DNA from: Acidilobaceae archaeon
GTDB taxonomy: Archaea > Thermoproteota > Thermoprotei_A > Sulfolobales > Acidilobaceae
DNA: 64,000 nucleotides
Direction of reading: 5' to 3'
Assembly (NCBI GenBank): GCA_027080775.1
Contig: JALWPV010000032.1
Span: 124,001-188,000 of the forward strand
In this document: positions 4,586 to 12,100 of the stretch, one piece after another
Numbering within the stretch: position 1 is the first letter of the stretch
Layout of the letters: the number at the start of each line of letters is the position of its first letter
Notes under the pieces: generated by a model
The model's database searches: none
What the model saw: only the letters and a program-made list of their open reading frames with translations
What the model was told of the DNA's origin: nothing
Program-made: the position numbers and the translations under genes

Positions 4586-6232
4586 CTAGAACTCGAACTT
4601 GCCGCTCTCCTCCTCGCCCTTCTCCTTCTTCTCCTTCTTCTTGGGCGGTGCAGCGGCTATGATGTCGTCGATCTTCAGTATCGAGGTGGCCGCCTCGCTG
4701 GCGCTCTTAATCACCTGCTTCTTGACTAGCACGGGCTCGTAGACATTGATCTTTATCATGTCGTGCTCTATCTTGCCCTCGAGCACGTTTACGCCCGCGT
4801 GCTTGAAGCCCTGGTTGTGGAGGGTGCTCAGCTGTAGTAGGGTGTCGAGGGCGTCCATACCGGCGCTCTCCGCCAGCACGGTGGGTATGACTTCTAGGGC
4901 CTCGGCGTAGGCCTTTATGGCTAGCTGCTCCTTGCCCTTCACGGTGTTAGCGTAGTCCTTGAGCCTCTCGGCAAGCTCTATCTCCACAGCGCCGCCGCCA
5001 CCTACTATCTTGGGCTCCCTCATTATGTTCCTGAGGGCGTGGAGGGCATCCATGATGCTCCTCTCGGCCTCATCGAGTAGCATGTCGTTGGCTCCGCGTA
5101 GCAGTATTGTTACGCTTCTCGGGTTCTTTGCTCCCTCTATGAAGATCATCTTGTCTTCTCCTACCTTGCGCTCCTCCACTAGCTCTGCGTAGCCTAGGTC
5201 CTCGGGCTTCAGGTCCCTGATGCTGGTCACGATCTTCGCGCCAGTCGCCTTAGCTATCTTCTCTATGTCGCTCCTCTTAACCCTCCTCACGGCCATGATC
5301 CCGTGCTTCGCTAGGTAGTGCTGCGCAACCTCGTCAATACCCTTCTGAGTAATCACCACATTAGCACCAGTAGCAGCAATCTTCTCCACCATCTCCTTGA
5401 GTAGCCTGGTCTCCTCCTCCAGGAACCTGTCGAGTTGCTCTATGTCGGTCACCCTTATCTTCGTGGTTATGTCGGGCTTCTGTATCTCTAGTGGGGCGTC
5501 TAGCACGGCTATCTTGGCGTTCTCAACCCTCCTAGGCATGCCTGGGTGCACGACCTCCTTGTCGATGACGACACCCCTTACGAGCTTGCTGTCCAGCAGG
5601 CTGCCACCCTTCTTCTTCTCGATCTTAACATTGTCTAGGTCGACGTTGTAGGTGCCGTCGGGCCTCTTCTCCGCTATGATCTTAATGGTCTCGACGACCA
5701 TGTCTATAATCTTCTCCTTCTCAGGCCCGTGACCTATGTACTTGCTTGCTAGAGCGGTCTCCGCTATCCTCCTGAGGGTAGCCTCGTCCTCGACGTTTAT
5801 CGGCACTGCTATCTGGTCTAGGAGCTCCAGGGCCTTCTCCTGGGCCTTCACGAAGCCATCAATTATCACGGAGGGGTGTATGTTATCGTCGAGGAGCTTC
5901 TCGGCCTTCTCGAGTAGCGTGCCAGCGAGGACGACCACGCTTGTGGTGCCATCGCCTACCTCGGCATCCTGGGCCTTAGCCACCTCAACTAGGAGCTTGG
6001 CCGCCGGGTGCTGGACCTCCATCTCCTTCACTATGGTGGCGCCGTCGTTCGTGACGGTTACATCGCCGAAACTGTCAACAAGCATCTTATCGAGGCCCCT
6101 GGGGCCTAGGCTGGACTTGAGCAGCTCAGCTAGGACCTTAGCCGCGAGGATGTTGTTCCTCAGCGCCTCTCTACCGTAGGTTCTCTGGGTGCCCTCCTTC
6201 AATATGATTACTGGCACTCCACCCATAGCCAT
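4586..6232 (-). CDS. ths: Thermosome subunit (group II chaperonin)
   Basis: ATP-dependent protein-folding chaperonin subunit that forms a two-ring barrel with a built-in lid. All hallmark elements are intact in 548 residues: [11 protein letters not shown] (about 40-50), NDGATI (62-67), GDGTTS (93-98), the apical-domain segment with [14 protein letters not shown], and the C-terminal equatorial segment with [12 protein letters not shown]. The C-terminal tail is charged ([19 protein letters not shown]) rather than the Gly/Met-rich tail of many thermosomes. Start ATG at 6232. It is divergent from the TtuA-like gene with a shared TATA-like element at 6296-6304. I cannot tell from sequence alone which paralogue class (alpha or beta) it is. 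A strongly diverged paralogue lies at 18167-19789. Confidence 0.97.
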
Positions 6233-6379: not shown

Positions 6380-7273
6380 ATGAGGGGAACAGGCCTGGCG
6401 CTAGGGGAGGCCAGATGCAGCGTCTGCGGCAGGAGAGCCGTCTACAAGCGTGCCTACAGCGGCGAGCTCCTCTGCGGCAGGTGCCTCCTGAGGGCGCTCG
6501 CTAGATCCGTTAAGAGGCAGGCGTCACGCTCCGGAGGCTTCAGGCCGCGCATGGGCGTTGTTGTCCCAGCAGCACTGGAGGCCCCGCATCTAGGCCTGGC
6601 GCTGGCGATGGCGCTCCACGAGGCGACGCGGGGACTAGACGTCACGGTGCACATCGTCGTACCGGAGGGCAGGGGCTGGGCGGTCGAGGTTCCCCGCGAG
6701 GTGCTAGCCAGGCTCGCCGGGATGGGTAGGGTGAGGCTTTGGAGGGCCAGGCTCCAGCTGAGAAGGCTCCCCTCCACATTGAGGGCATGCATAAGGCTCG
6801 ACAGGGCCTGGAGCGCCCTCGCCGCGAGGCAACTGGGAGCTGGGGCTGTGGGCCTGCCAGTCACGAGGACCACGGCGACACTCGCAGCCGTCGACGCCCT
6901 GCTGAGAGGCGAGCCTTGGGGGCTCAGTGAGGCACTCGAGGAGTCGGTCTACATAGGCGGTATAGCGGTCGCCCCACTATTCTACTCTGTAGAGGGCGAG
7001 GCTGCCTCCGCCCTGGCGGCTGTGGAGGGCCTCAAGGCTTGGGGGCCATGTAAGCCCGAGAGCCTCTCCTGGGGCCCCCTCATGAGCGTGCTACACGGCC
7101 GGCCCGAGCTAGAGTTCAGCCCAGCCAAGGCCATAGGCCTCCTAGCGGGCCAGCTCAGGGGGATGCCGAGGTGTAGGCTGTGCGGGGGCTACACGCCCAG
7201 GCCTGGTGTGTGCCCCGACTGCGCTGGTGTGGGCCTTGAGGCAGTGGAGGTAGAGCCCCTCCACGAGGCCTAG
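6380..7273 (+). CDS. Degenerate TtuA/Ncs6-like protein with two zinc ribbons
   Basis: A protein of 297 residues. It has an N-terminal zinc ribbon (CSVCG...CGRC), a central Rossmann-like region and a C-terminal ribbon (CRLCGG...CPDC), the same order as in TtuA/Ncs6 tRNA 2-thiolation enzymes. The catalytic features are eroded. The SGGKDS PP-loop position reads VVVPAALEAPHLGLALAMAL. The middle CxxC of the Fe-S site is reduced to one Cys (LRACIRLD). The ATGHNLDDEAQ region reads GLPVTRTTATLAAVDALL. The Cys corresponding to the conserved CPYS is retained (WGPCKPESLS). I infer a non-thiolating paralogue, perhaps a tRNA-binding or scaffold protein. Start ATG at 6380 follows GGGGGAGGG; an upstream ATG at 6284 precedes the TATA box and is rejected. 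Its stop overlaps the convergent gene's stop in the shared CTAG at 7270-7273. Confidence 0.7.
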   Translation: MRGTGLALGEARCSVCGRRAVYKRAYSGELLCGRCLLRALARSVKRQASRSGGFRPRMGVVVPAALEAPHLGLALAMALHEATRGLDVTVHIVVPEGRGWAVEVPREVLARLAGMGRVRLWRARLQLRRLPSTLRACIRLDRAWSALAARQLGAGAVGLPVTRTTATLAAVDALLRGEPWGLSEALEESVYIGGIAVAPLFYSVEGEAASALAAVEGLKAWGPCKPESLSWGPLMSVLHGRPELEFSPAKAIGLLAGQLRGMPRCRLCGGYTPRPGVCPDCAGVGLEAVEVEPLHEA

Positions 7274-8124
7274 GGGGCCGAGGCCCTCTCGCGGAGGATC
7301 CTCTCCAGCAGCAGCCTCTCGCGGCGGGACAGGAAGAGCTGGATCCCGTACTCCCCCGGCCTCCAGAGGCTCGGGGGTTTAACCTCGTTATCCACCACCA
7401 CGTAGCCGGCTCGGAGGGCCTCTCTCACGAGCTGCGGGGGGCTTCTCCTGGCGAAGGACTCTAGCATGCCCTCGAAGCCTATAGACTTCTTCACCTCCTC
7501 CTCGCTCAGGCTCGCACCGCACACGATACACGTTAAGTCTGGGGCGACCGCGTTGAAGCCGCAGCGGGGGCACCTGATGGGAGTCGGCCTGCCGTACCTG
7601 TTCCAGAGGTCCCTGAGCGCCTCCACTATATGGTCAGCGCCGAGCCTTCTGGCCTCGTGGTAGAGCATTGGCGCCGCCCTCCCAGCGACCTCGGGAGCAG
7701 CGCTCACTATGAGCTCCAGCTGTTCAACGCTATAAGGAGGGCCCCTCTCGACCAGTTTAGCAGCCAATCCCTTCAGGAACGCCTCCTTATTCCTCATGAT
7801 ATTCTTGACGAGGCTCTCTATGCTGGGCTTGGTGCTCCTATTAGCGGCTATGCCCTGCACTATATCAGCTACCAGGTCCCGTATATCGGAGGGGGAGAGC
7901 CCGTAGTAGTCGAGTCCCAGCCTCTCGGCGACCTGTCTAGCTACCTCGGCTGAGACACTCTCCACGTCAAGCTTGAAGCCCCGCCTCCTAGATGCACGCG
8001 AGGCCCTAGAGCCGCTACCCTTGGAGCCCCTCGATCTCGAGGACCTACTCCTACCCGACCCCCTCCTACGTGGCAGGAGGACCACCACCCGAGGAGGCCG
8101 GGGGGCGCGAGTCCTTATCTGCAA
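7270..8124 (-). CDS. Unrecognised basic zinc-ribbon protein
   Basis: I do not recognise this 284-residue protein. It has an Arg/Ser/Gly-rich basic N-terminus (residues about 10-50, many RS/SR pairs), a helical middle (about 50-170), one clear zinc ribbon CPRCG...CIVCG near residue 183, and a helical C-terminal part ending RERLLLERILRERASAP. The basic tract and ribbon suggest nucleic-acid or replisome-protein binding, but that is inference. It is divergent from gins23-mcm across a 66-nt gap with a TATA-like GTTATTAC at 8151-8158. TTG at 8124 would be almost leaderless; GTG codons about 12 residues in are alternatives. Confidence 0.75.
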   Translation of the reverse strand: MQIRTRAPRPPRVVVLLPRRRGSGRSRSSRSRGSKGSGSRASRASRRRGFKLDVESVSAEVARQVAERLGLDYYGLSPSDIRDLVADIVQGIAANRSTKPSIESLVKNIMRNKEAFLKGLAAKLVERGPPYSVEQLELIVSAAPEVAGRAAPMLYHEARRLGADHIVEALRDLWNRYGRPTPIRCPRCGFNAVAPDLTCIVCGASLSEEEVKKSIGFEGMLESFARRSPPQLVREALRAGYVVVDNEVKPPSLWRPGEYGIQLFLSRRERLLLERILRERASAP

Positions 8125-8190: not shown

Positions 8191-8769
8191 TTGAGGGTTA
8201 GGGACTCGCTGCGTGTCAGGCTGAGGCTCGTGGCCTATGACTACCTGGTGGAGCCGGTGAGGGTCCTGGCCTTGAAGGATATAGGGCCTCTCCCGCTGCC
8301 GCAGGGAGCGGTTAACGTGAGGAGGGGAGACGAGCTAGACGTGCCCCGTTGGCAGGCTAGGGAGCTTGAGAGGCTGGGGCTCGTGGAGGTTAGGGCCCGC
8401 GGCCTGGATATTGACACCGTAAATATGTACCACTACAAGGAGAAGAGGGGGCAGGCCGCCAACCAGCTCCAGAGCATACCTCAGGATTTCTACATGGCGG
8501 CTAGGGAACTCATAGAGAGGCTTGATGAGATGATCAGGGAGAGCCCGTCGACCATGCTGATCAGGGACAGGGAGGTCGTCGAGAAGAACCTCCTAGACAT
8601 AGCTGAGACTAGGCTGGTTAAGCTACTCAGGCTCGCCGCCAGCGGCGGGGAGGAGTTCAGGGAGAGGATGACCCCTGAGGAGTCCATAGCCTTCGATGCT
8701 ATTAGGGCTGTCGTTGAGGTGTTCAGAGATTATGTCAAAGGGCTAGCAGGGGGTGGTGGGAGTGGCTGA
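8191..8769 (+). CDS. gins23: GINS replication complex subunit Gins23
   Basis: Subunit of the archaeal GINS complex, which joins MCM and Cdc45/RecJ-like protein in the CMG-type replicative helicase. The 192-residue protein has a small beta-rich B domain first (about residues 15-70: PVRVLALKDIGPLPLPQG, then RRGDELDVPRWQARELERLG) and the helical A domain after it (about 80-185), the B-then-A order of Gins23. Start TTG at 8191 follows a CGGGGGCC stretch. The gene overlaps the MCM start by 17 nt, and gins23-mcm adjacency is an established crenarchaeal arrangement seen in Sulfolobus. This context is a main reason for the call, since GINS sequences are poorly conserved. Confidence 0.87.
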   Translation: MRVRDSLRVRLRLVAYDYLVEPVRVLALKDIGPLPLPQGAVNVRRGDELDVPRWQARELERLGLVEVRARGLDIDTVNMYHYKEKRGQAANQLQSIPQDFYMAARELIERLDEMIRESPSTMLIRDREVVEKNLLDIAETRLVKLLRLAASGGEEFRERMTPEESIAFDAIRAVVEVFRDYVKGLAGGGGSG

Positions 8770-11700
8770 GAGCAGCCTCGAGTTGGATTATGCTGAGAGG
8801 TTCAAGGATTTCCTCAGAAACTTTAGGGACCGCCTCGGGGAGCTGAAGTACCTTCAGAGGCTCCGGAGGATGATAAGCTTCAATCAGTCTAGCCTAATCG
8901 TTGACTACCCCGACCTCTACAGGTACGACACGGAGTTGGCCGAGGCCGTGGTGGAGGACCCGGATAGGTTCATACGCAGCGCTGGCGACGCCATCAAGGA
9001 GCTGGTCGCCCAGGAGGACCCGGAGTACGCTGAGAAGAAGAGGAGGTTCGTGCCCAGGTTCGTGAACCTCTTCGAGACCGTTAAGATCAGGGAGATACGC
9101 TCCGAGCACATAGGTAGGCTCGTCCAGATAGACGGCGTTATAACGAGGATGCTACCAGTGAAGAGCAAGCTTGTGAAGGCTGTATTCCTCCACGACAAGT
9201 GCGGGGGCACATTCACCTGGCCTCCTGGCGATGAGGAGCTTCAGGAGGACAAGCTGGAGAGGCCCCCCTATTGCCCCCTCTGTGGTGAGAGTGGGGGACG
9301 CTTCATACTGGTGAAGGAGAAGAGTACCTACATAGACTACCAGAAGATCGTAGTGCAGGAGAGGCCCGAGGACGTTCCGGGAGGGCAGATGCCTAGGAGC
9401 ATAGAGGTCAAGCTGACCGGTGACCTGGTCGACACGGCGAGGCCCGGGGATAGGGTGCAGATAGCTGGCATAGTCAGGCTGGAGCCGGCCTCGCCTAGGA
9501 GCACCCTCTTCGACATCTACATTGAGGCGAATAGCATCAGGGTTAGCGAGAAGGAGCTGGAGGAGGTATCCATAACTAGGGAGGACGAGGAGAGGATACG
9601 CCAGCTTGCCCGCGATCCCTGGGTGAGGGAGAGGATCATAGCCAGCATAGCCCCCAGCATCTACGGGCACTGGGACCTCAAGGAGGCCATAGCACTCCTA
9701 CTCTTCGGCGGCGTCCCCAAGGTGCTGCCGGATGGTACCAGGATAAGGGGCGACATACACGTGCTCTTCATTGGAGACCCTGGTATGGCGAAGAGCCAGC
9801 TCCTCCAGGCGGCTGCCCGCGTGGCTCCAAGGGCGGTCTTCACGAGTGGTAAGGGCAGCACGGCGGCGGGCCTCACGGCGGCGGTCCTCAGGGATCCGAA
9901 GACGGGGGAGTGGTACCTCGAGGCTGGCGCCCTCGTGCTCGCCGATGGTGGCGTGGCTATAATTGACGAGTTCGATAAGATGAGGAGTGAGGACAGGACT
10001 GCGATACACGAGGCGATGGAGCAGCAGAGCTATCACAGGGACTTCGAGATACTGCTCGGGGATGGGAGGAAGGTTAGGATAGGCGAGCTGGTAGACTCCC
10101 TCATGGAGAGCCGCCGGGCCGAGGTCATAAGGGGCAGGGAGACCGAGGTGCTGAGGGTTAACGACATCTACGTGGTAGCCTATGACCCAGAGGCCAAGAG
10201 GACTGTCCTAGCCAAGGCTGATAGGGTAAGCAGGCACAGGGCTCCGAGGAGGCTTGTAAGGATAAGGTTCTCCAACGGCAGGGAGGTAACCGTGACCCCC
10301 GAGCACCCGATCATGGTATGGACGGGCGGCGCCATCAGGGAGAAGCCCGCCTCCGAGGTGAGGCCGGGCGACATCGCAGTGGGCGTGAGATTCTACGGCA
10401 TACCAGAGATCTACAATACCGACCCTAAGACAGCCGGTGTAGCGGCGCTCCTCGCCGCAGCCACCGAGCCCCCCAGCTTCGAGGGCGGGTGCCTGGAGGC
10501 CACCCTGCCGGGGGCCAGCGGCCTCTGCGTCGAGGTGGCCCGCGAGACGCTCTCGGGCATCGAAGCGGAGTATAGTGTGGAGGAGCTGGATGGGGGCTGG
10601 TGCAGGCTCCGGATCTGCGGCAATGTCGCTGAGGCCCTCGAGGCCCTAATGCCGGAGCTCCTCTGGTCCCGCGGAGAGGCCAGGATTCCGGCCAGGATCC
10701 TAGCAGCGAAGAGGGAGGCGAGGAGGGAGTTCCTGAGGGTCTACTTCCAGCTGAGGGGCCGCATAGGCCCCGATGGCCTCGCCCTAGGGGCTAGCGGTAG
10801 GGGGCTCGCGGAGGACTTACAGGACCTCCTCTTGGACTTCGGCGTCTACAGCGTGCTCGACTGCTCCCGCGGCTCCTGCAGTCTCCGCGTCCAGTCCCCA
10901 CGCGACGCTGAGGTGCTCCTATCCATAGCGGGCCTAGAGGGCGGCTGGGCTCTAGCCTGGCCCCAGGGGGGTGAGTGGGACGAGCTGCCACCGGACGCCT
11001 CGAAGCGCCTTGTGGACGCCGCGGCCCTCGCGGGCGTCAGGGGCGTGGCCTCTACCCCCGGGGGAGGCCTTGATAGGGGTATGGCGTCGAGGCTCCTAGG
11101 CGAGCTTCGCGAGCGGGGGGCCGTTGGTGGCGTCGAGGATCTTGAAGGTATAGTAGGGGGCAACATCAGGTTCCTGCGGGTCGAGTCCGTTGAGGTCGTC
11201 GAGAATAGGGACTCGGAGTGGGTCTACGACGTCACGGTGGAGCCCTACCACCTCTTCGTCTCCCACGGGCTGGTCCTTCACAACACAATAAGCATATCGA
11301 AGGCTGGCATAGTGGCGAGGCTCAACGCTAGGGCTAGCGTGCTCGCTGCTGGGAATCCCAAGCTGGGCCTCTATGACCCCACGAAGAGTTTCGTGGACAA
11401 CGTTAACCTGCCCCCAACGATACTCTCGAGGTTCGACCTGATATTCGTGTTAAGGGACATACCCGACAAGAGGCGTGACGCCGAGCTAGCGGCGTACGTA
11501 CTCGAGGCCCACACGGGCAGCGATAAGATAAGGCCCGACATAGACCCCCAGCTCCTCAGGAAGTACATCCTATACGCCAGGCGCTACGTGAGGAGGATCC
11601 GCCTCGCACCCGAGGCCAAGGAGATGCTCAAGGACTTCTTCACTAGCATGAGGGCGAGCGTGCTATCCAAGATGCAGGGGGAGGGCCCCATACCGATACC

Positions 11701-12100
11701 GATAACGACGAGGCAGCTCGAGGCGCTCATAAGGCTGACGGAGGCCCACGCCCGCATGGCCCTAAGGGAGGAGGCTGGCCCCGAGGACGCCGCCGAGGCT
11801 ATCAGGCTGACGCTCAGCTTCCTGACGAGCGTTGGCTTCGACGTGGAGACCGGGGTGGTGGATGTCGGCATGCTAGCCTCGGGGGCGACGTTCAGGATGA
11901 GGACTATAATGAGTACAATCCAGGATATAATAAAGGAGATGCAGAAGGAGAGGGGCTGCGTGCCCCTCAAGAGGATCCTGGAGGAGGCGGAGGCCCGCAG
12001 GATCCCCAGGGAGAAGGCGCAGGAGGCCGTCGAGATAATGCACAGGAGGGGGCTGATATTCGATAAGGGGGGCAACCAGTGCTACGCCCTAGTGCCGTGA
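8753..12100 (+). CDS. mcm: Replicative helicase MCM, interrupted by an intein
   Basis: Hexameric 3'-5' DNA helicase of the archaeal replisome. The precursor is 1115 residues; removing the 419-residue intein leaves about 696, the usual MCM size. It has an N-terminal OB domain with a zinc site (DKCGG...CPLCG, about residues 145-185), Walker A GDPGMAKSQ (about 341-349), Walker B IDEFDKM (about 404-410), and the arginine-finger segment LSRFDLIFVLRD after the intein. A C-terminal winged helix ends the protein (RRGLIFDKGGNQCYALVP). The intein sits after EAMEQQ and before TISISKAG, in the ATPase core, so splicing is needed for activity. GTG at 8753, 8756 or 8762 are all possible starts; 8762 (MAESSLELDY) is the one least overlapping gins23. 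The stop overlaps the convergent M42 gene by 12 nt. Confidence 0.97.
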   Translation: MVGVAESSLELDYAERFKDFLRNFRDRLGELKYLQRLRRMISFNQSSLIVDYPDLYRYDTELAEAVVEDPDRFIRSAGDAIKELVAQEDPEYAEKKRRFVPRFVNLFETVKIREIRSEHIGRLVQIDGVITRMLPVKSKLVKAVFLHDKCGGTFTWPPGDEELQEDKLERPPYCPLCGESGGRFILVKEKSTYIDYQKIVVQERPEDVPGGQMPRSIEVKLTGDLVDTARPGDRVQIAGIVRLEPASPRSTLFDIYIEANSIRVSEKELEEVSITREDEERIRQLARDPWVRERIIASIAPSIYGHWDLKEAIALLLFGGVPKVLPDGTRIRGDIHVLFIGDPGMAKSQLLQAAARVAPRAVFTSGKGSTAAGLTAAVLRDPKTGEWYLEAGALVLADGGVAIIDEFDKMRSEDRTAIHEAMEQQSYHRDFEILLGDGRKVRIGELVDSLMESRRAEVIRGRETEVLRVNDIYVVAYDPEAKRTVLAKADRVSRHRAPRRLVRIRFSNGREVTVTPEHPIMVWTGGAIREKPASEVRPGDIAVGVRFYGIPEIYNTDPKTAGVAALLAAATEPPSFEGGCLEATLPGASGLCVEVARETLSGIEAEYSVEELDGGWCRLRICGNVAEALEALMPELLWSRGEARIPARILAAKREARREFLRVYFQLRGRIGPDGLALGASGRGLAEDLQDLLLDFGVYSVLDCSRGSCSLRVQSPRDAEVLLSIAGLEGGWALAWPQGGEWDELPPDASKRLVDAAALAGVRGVASTPGGGLDRGMASRLLGELRERGAVGGVEDLEGIVGGNIRFLRVESVEVVENRDSEWVYDVTVEPYHLFVSHGLVLHNTISISKAGIVARLNARASVLAAGNPKLGLYDPTKSFVDNVNLPPTILSRFDLIFVLRDIPDKRRDAELAAYVLEAHTGSDKIRPDIDPQLLRKYILYARRYVRRIRLAPEAKEMLKDFFTSMRASVLSKMQGEGPIPIPITTRQLEALIRLTEAHARMALREEAGPEDAAEAIRLTLSFLTSVGFDVETGVVDVGMLASGATFRMRTIMSTIQDIIKEMQKERGCVPLKRILEEAEARRIPREKAQEAVEIMHRRGLIFDKGGNQCYALVP
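10028..11284 (+). other. Intein within MCM (degenerate LAGLIDADG endonuclease)
   Basis: In-frame protein intron of 419 residues (MCM precursor residues 426-844). It begins with Ser (SYHRDFEILLGDG), carries block B GREVTVTPEHPIMVW with the conserved T-x-x-H, and ends with blocks F/G (WVYDVTVEPYHLFVSHGLVLHN); the +1 extein residue is Thr. The splice residues (Ser1, His-Asn end, Thr+1) look competent. The middle has the size of a homing endonuclease, but the second LAGLIDADG-like helix reads FLRVYFQLRGRI, with Gln and Arg where the motif has Asp, and the first reads GVAALLAAATEP. It should therefore splice but probably cannot cut DNA. Confidence 0.93.

Follow-up and report, generated by a model that had tools for sequence, protein, structure and literature searches.

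A PP-loop-less paralogue of the tRNA thiolase NcsA conserved in one archaeal class, and its possible pairing with an active NcsA

What function can be expected from a protein that has the architecture of a tRNA 2-thiolase but not the residues with which such an enzyme works? This question is raised by an open reading frame of 297 aa located at positions 6380..7273 (+) of the window, i.e., the stretch of 64,000 nucleotides (G000:C32:124001-188000) that was analysed from a draft archaeal genome with a completeness of 99.89%. Its ATG is preceded by a purine-rich stretch, and 147 bases separate it from the divergent gene of a thermosome subunit (4586..6232, -; Pfam Cpn60_TCP1), whereas its last 4 bases are shared with the terminus of a convergent gene that encodes a zinc-ribbon protein (7270..8124, -), for which no Pfam match above the cut-off was obtained. 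Beyond the zinc-ribbon gene, a GINS-like gene and then an MCM gene are found. The MCM helicase gene (8753-12100, +) is interrupted by an intein (Pfam Intein_splicing, residues 434-844) within the conserved segment EQQ/TISIS; by eye, Ser is the first residue of the element and Thr follows it. An earlier note on this DNA, made from the letters alone, described the product of the open reading frame as a TtuA/Ncs6-like protein without a PP-loop, and proposed that it could be a tRNA-binding scaffold, a regulator of an active TtuA, or a new enzyme.

In Pfam, the only match of the 297-aa protein above the cut-off is that of TtuA_LIM_N to its N-terminal CxxC...CxxC ribbon (E 3.8e-7), and NCBIfam gives a weak NcsA match (0.0046). 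The paralogue family as a whole matches ribbon families only in Pfam; in NCBIfam, 17 of the 38 members checked gave weak matches to TtuA and 17 to NcsA, and no family dedicated to these proteins was found for these 38. A profile of 29 orthologues (A1), composed of the 297-aa protein and 28 other loci (L007-L034), aligned with TtuA from Pyrococcus (5mko) with an E value of 1.1e-15 over positions 2-274, and with NcsA (6scy) at 4.9e-14; L035, whose frame is split in two, and L036 and L037, from the same genomes as L007 and L009, were left out of this profile. The AlphaFold2 model of the protein (pLDDT 93.8, pTM 0.92) has the full TtuA/NcsA fold, and the 17 best PDB chains retrieved with Foldseek are all TtuA or NcsA. 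According to VIA-align, the model superposes on TtuA with Z 19.6 (259-264 residues, 3.6 A) and on NcsA with Z 17.7 (248 residues, 3.5 A), followed by TilS with Z 15.1-16.0, and by the rest of the entries listed at 9.5 or less. The Sulfolobaceae orthologue (G142:C1:1195473-1196204) of genome G142, which we take to be S. acidocaldarius, was modelled over 246 aa with a pLDDT of 92.3; this model also matches TtuA/NcsA (Foldseek 1.8e-9; Z 15.5, 225 residues, 3.9 A), and the first row other than TtuA, NcsA or TilS appears at Z 7.6. The type I NcsA of the same genome is located at G142:C1:1340336-1341292. The relationship suggested by the earlier note is therefore significant in the profile comparison that it recommended, and the fold that it expected is the one predicted; as for its question about the host, the genome encodes an intact TtuA and also an intact NcsA, which is of type I (G000:C11:109613-110572).

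Two families of thiolases come closest. TtuA from Pyrococcus horikoshii (5mko/3vrh), a tRNA U54 2-thiolase, is the best single structural match and has the same ribbons; however, the paralogue lacks its catalytic residues, is more distant from it by profile than from NcsA, and is present in many genomes that show no TtuA. The archaeal tRNA U34 thiolase NcsA (e.g., 6scy from Methanococcus maripaludis) shares with the paralogue the whole-length fold and both ribbons, and an intact NcsA accompanies the paralogue in the same genome; in contrast with NcsA, the paralogue has neither the PP-loop nor the HNxDD segment, and its set of Fe-S cysteines is incomplete. When a class-wide profile of 38 chosen rows (A2) was compared using hhalign, the E value was 4.5e-38 with NcsA of other classes, 8.2e-26 with TtuA, and 2.5e-25 (type I) and 1.1e-24 with the two NcsA groups of the class itself. 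Judged by profile, the family of proteins closest to the paralogues is thus NcsA, the U34 thiolase, and not TtuA. In a tree of 89 rows, chosen from many more that were found, the paralogues form one group (SH-aLRT 100), whose placement is uncertain because the branches are long. Outside the class, which we take to be the one that holds Sulfolobus, Aeropyrum and Acidilobus, no PP-loop-less member was detected among 28 NcsA-like proteins (L219-L241, L242-L246) screened from the matches across 151 genomes, since all of these have SGGKDS. Short exact patterns recovered two near relatives alone, and profile searches proved better for proteins that evolve this fast. A search of plasmids gave no match.

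The loss of the active site was examined residue by residue in an alignment of 20 chosen paralogues with 69 intact proteins. The S-G-G-K-D residues of the PP-loop are present in 69/69 intact proteins and in 0/20 paralogues, and the same is true for the His of the H(N/T)xDD segment. In the 297-aa protein, residues 63-72 (PAALEAPHLG; 6566..6595, +), which follow the first core strand, align where the PP-loop would be, and both SGGKDS and HNxDD are missing, as the earlier note had stated. The first Fe-S cysteine, found in 69/69 intact proteins, is conserved in 1/20 paralogues and is missing here; the second is found in 66/69 versus 8/20, and the third in 69/69 versus 14/20. It had been noted that one cysteine of the cluster was gone and that the one corresponding to CPYS survived, which is correct for the first cysteine and for Cys224 (7049..7051, +), the third; nevertheless, Cys137 (6788..6790, +), which corresponds in the alignment to the second such cysteine in NcsA, is also kept, so that one more remains than was counted. 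Cysteine occupies the position of Cys137 in 18/38 class-wide rows and that of Cys224 in 24/38, and neither position has it in the five Sulfolobaceae rows examined; from the first two counts, an Fe-S cluster is unlikely as a feature common to the family. A metal site is possible in the proteins of family f1, where each of the two cysteines is present in 23 of 29 rows. Given that the defining residues of the active TtuA/NcsA enzymes were looked for and are absent, the 297-aa protein does not belong among them.

On the other hand, both terminal zinc ribbons reported from the sequence are indeed present. The N-terminal ribbon (residues 13-35, CSVC...CGRC; 6416..6484, +), which is the one recognised by Pfam TtuA_LIM_N, is the best-conserved part of the family, with its four cysteines in 37-38 of the 38 rows; in the C-terminal ribbon (residues 265-281, CRLC...CPDC; 7172..7222, +) each cysteine is found in 30-31 of them. 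Glu243, in the PEL of the RPELEFS motif (residues 241-247; 7100..7120, +), is invariant (38/38). Apart from this Glu and the ribbons, only one Ala and one Pro come close to being invariant across the class; within family f1, stretches such as RxERAWS, EGE and RPELEFSS are conserved. Scored against HMMs of NcsA from other classes, the region of the N ribbon and its helix reaches a median of 53.1 bits in the paralogues (n=20), 43.0 in NcsA of paralogue-bearing genomes (n=21), 47.8 in NcsA of paralogue-free genomes (n=16) and 27.1 in TtuA (n=16). For the PP domain the corresponding values are 1.2, 162.8, 191.7 and 103.8 bits, and for the C part 18.2, 72.4, 86.8 and 57.4 bits. Since the paralogues score above the active relatives of the class in the first of these regions, the ancestral N ribbon is, by this measure, better preserved in the dead protein than in the active ones. 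The core of the paralogue evolves very fast and the Sulfolobaceae forms have merely 223-272 aa; in view of this, the dimer contacts of NcsA may have been lost. A shrunken form of 184 aa, which retains the N ribbon, has a PTETYSS motif and lacks the C ribbon, was observed in genome G040 of family f6 (L141:1117-1668, -).

In spite of this rapid divergence, the 297-aa protein is under purifying selection (dN/dS 0.11). Pairwise dN/dS values from three congeneric genomes are 0.113, 0.155 and 0.282, the last two being near saturation of synonymous sites. The very fast divergence and the shortened forms, together with the occasional in-frame stop or split frame in draft genomes, would be expected from a decaying copy without function; however, these values (0.11, 0.16 and 0.28 when rounded) contradict decay, the 29 genomes of Sulfolobaceae searched all retain the gene, and its position is conserved. 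Decay is therefore very improbable as an account of this gene.

The observation extends well beyond one gene, to a conserved family. The A2 profile was used to search 144 genomes of the class that are at least 85% complete, a second profile weighted towards Sulfolobaceae (A5) was run on 71 chosen genomes, and about 90 loci, from a subset of the genomes, were inspected letter by letter. Of the 15 family codes into which the class is divided, 11 have PP-loop-less orthologues and a twelfth (f6) has a shortened form. The gene was found in all the genomes of f1 (29/29), f2 (16/16), f3 (11/11), f4 (3/3), f5 (4/4), f8 (5/5) and f11 (29/29), which we take to be Sulfolobaceae, in the single genomes of f12, f13 and f14 (1/1 each), and in 2/3 genomes of f10, plus a fragment at a contig edge. 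Family f6 has it in 1/3 (the remnant-like 184-aa form of G040); G050 gave a weak match only and none was found in G095. The paralogue was not found in f7 (0/8), f9 (0/28) or f15 (0/2), the first two of which are presumably Desulfurococcaceae and Pyrodictiaceae. No intact protein was seen above 107 bits in the A2 search, and the lower-scoring proteins of G039, G029 and G153 were counted as paralogues after it was seen by eye that the PP-loop is missing.

This distribution was compared with that of the active thiolases. A profile made from NcsA of paralogue-bearing genomes (A3) gives at least 418 bits in 100 genomes and at most 300 elsewhere, which defines type I NcsA; likewise, a profile from NcsA of f7 and f9 (A4) gives at least 490 bits in 35 genomes and at most 303 elsewhere, which defines type II. 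The two types were found together in none of the 144 genomes searched. The paralogue is present in 99 of the 100 genomes with type I NcsA, the remaining one (G150) having a fragment at a contig edge, and in 0 of the 35 with type II, i.e., 8 from f7 and 27 from f9. With the paralogues left out, a tree of 69 rows places the 20 type I rows in a single clade (96/85), to which L200 from f6 attaches (100/99), and the 15 type II rows in a separate one (100/100); L192, from G152, was removed from the type I group before testing. Besides these 100 and 35 clearly typed genomes, there are nine others in the 144. G004 and G058 have the paralogue and no NcsA was found in them, neither was found in G072, the NcsA of G040, G050 and G095 (f6) is nearer type I, and G154 and G155 have another NcsA and no paralogue. 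The clearest exception to the co-occurrence is G152 (G152:C2:4330-5256), where a paralogue is found with an NcsA of a third kind that groups with L246.

The same comparison was possible for TtuA. Counted by reading the tables, 40 of the 100 type I genomes have a single A3 match at E 1e-30, and hence no TtuA at this threshold; these include genomes in a single contig, e.g., G007 and G042. Conversely, G053, G066 and G117 have TtuA and no paralogue. The presence of the paralogue thus tracks type I NcsA and not TtuA, given that no TtuA was seen in about 40 of these 100 genomes. Nevertheless, the two families in which type II NcsA goes together with the absence of the paralogue belong to one order, and this could possibly go back to a single event, so the co-occurrence should not be regarded as many independent trials.

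The gene order around the paralogue was compared as well. From 40 paralogue loci, counted by reading tables in which many stretches stop at contig edges, the thermosome gene is present in 26, the zinc-ribbon gene in 27, both in 22 and at least one in 31; both neighbours were also found in 8 of ten further loci, including all five from Sulfolobaceae, and the zinc-ribbon neighbour (7270-8124, -) is present in 17 of 18 genomes searched. The paralogue gene does not adjoin ncsA. Five loci of f7 and f9 keep the thermosome gene, the zinc-ribbon gene and, between them, a small thioredoxin-like gene, without the paralogue. Loss in f7 and f9 is more likely than the gene never having been gained, because the paralogue is also present in f12-f14, outside the order. 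In many families, the interval from the thermosome gene to the zinc-ribbon gene encodes a small thioredoxin-fold protein (17 matching loci; L169-L173 and others); one of these proteins has a Pfam Thioredoxin match, and the five f7/f9 copies have no CxxC by eye. The idea that this gene displaced the paralogue was dropped, as in other families it also sits between the paralogue and the zinc-ribbon gene. The zinc-ribbon neighbour was likewise discarded as a partner, since it persists in genomes without the paralogue.

The whole-length homology and fold, the loss of the active site, the selection, the conservation across the class and the co-occurrence with type I NcsA are observed, and they have to be accounted for together. 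We propose, with a probability that we put at roughly 55%, that the protein, a conserved and catalytically dead paralogue of NcsA, pairs with type I NcsA as its non-catalytic subunit. A dead site, both ribbons and one active paralogue that accompanies it make a heterodimer with type I NcsA the most economical reading of this anatomy. In such a pair, the paralogue would replace one protomer of the NcsA dimer; type I NcsA would bind ATP and the [4Fe-4S] cluster and carry out the chemistry, while the dead subunit would provide dimer contacts and, through its two zinc ribbons, may hold and orient the tRNA. The pair would then act like the eukaryotic Ncs2/Ctu2 beside Ncs6/Ctu1, presumably in the formation of s2U34.

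The likeness to Ncs2/Ctu2 is that of a dead U34-thiolase paralogue with both zinc sites retained and a single active paralogue at its side. It is reported that Ctu2 keeps the zinc sites without the cluster cysteines, and that a Ctu1/Ctu2 model superposes on the NcsA homodimer (PMC10067955); that Ncs2 has lost the catalytic residues, that the Ncs2/Ncs6 complex exceeds either subunit in stability, and that Ncs2 may be a specificity factor that contacts the tRNA core (PMC10450187). In contrast, the additional regions reported for Ctu2 are absent from the paralogue, which, as far as was searched, is seen in one archaeal class only. Pfam CTU2 (PF10288) gave no match up to E 10 with 8 proteins of the family, and type II NcsA L184 gives 0.14, in a comparison where the HMMER filters drop weak matches. 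Given the missing CTU2 match and the restriction to one class, the paralogue would be a counterpart of Ncs2/Ctu2 that probably arose independently, rather than a member of Ncs2/Ctu2 proper. Against a partner role stands the description of M. maripaludis NcsA as a homodimer that is active by itself (PMC10067955). Another paper states that 'archaeal homologues rather form homodimers' and, for Sulfolobus, that no data tie Urm1 directly to tRNA thiolation (PMC12645042).

Among the roles first suggested for the protein, that of a scaffold is the best-fitting, although its partner would be NcsA rather than TtuA, as the profiles are nearest to NcsA and about 40 genomes lack TtuA. These 40 genomes, together with those that have TtuA and no paralogue and with the profile comparison, make a partner or regulator of TtuA in m5s2U54 synthesis improbable, even if TtuA is the single best match in the PDB. 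Hardly less improbable is a new enzyme whose site has been rebuilt, perhaps with use of the two remaining cysteines: the frequency of Cys137 and Cys224 in f1 and the conserved stretches of this family would agree with it, but hardly any core residue is conserved class-wide apart from the few mentioned above, and the cysteines are found in about half to two thirds of the 38 rows and are off-position in the five Sulfolobaceae rows. A more serious alternative, still unlikely in our estimation, is that of a lone RNA- or tRNA-binding protein, e.g., a tRNA chaperone or a ribosome-linked factor, in which the thiolase fold and its ribbons are put to another use, with no thiolase partner. Ribbons that are the most conserved part of a protein whose core is nearly free to drift, and a gene located beside that of the thermosome and not beside ncsA, would be well explained in this way; nevertheless, it leaves unexplained why the paralogue correlates with type I and not with type II NcsA.

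In archaea, U34 thiolation has been described as depending on a single homodimeric protein, and the system of two proteins as a eukaryotic invention (PMC10067955; PMC12645042). No paper on the paralogue family was found among open-access PMC texts. It is conceivable, though we hold it somewhat more doubtful than even, that this class evolved a two-subunit tRNA thiolase, formed by type I NcsA and its dead twin, separately from eukaryotes, and that families f7 and f9 (presumably Desulfurococcaceae and Pyrodictiaceae) exchanged the pair for a one-subunit enzyme. If this is true, the notion that archaea rely on a single NcsA homodimer would not hold for the genus used to study archaeal Urm1, and the split of a homodimer into active and inactive partners would have happened more than once in the same enzyme. 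A natural pair with a dead subunit in a thermophilic and genetically tractable archaeon would then allow direct tests of the role of the dead subunit.
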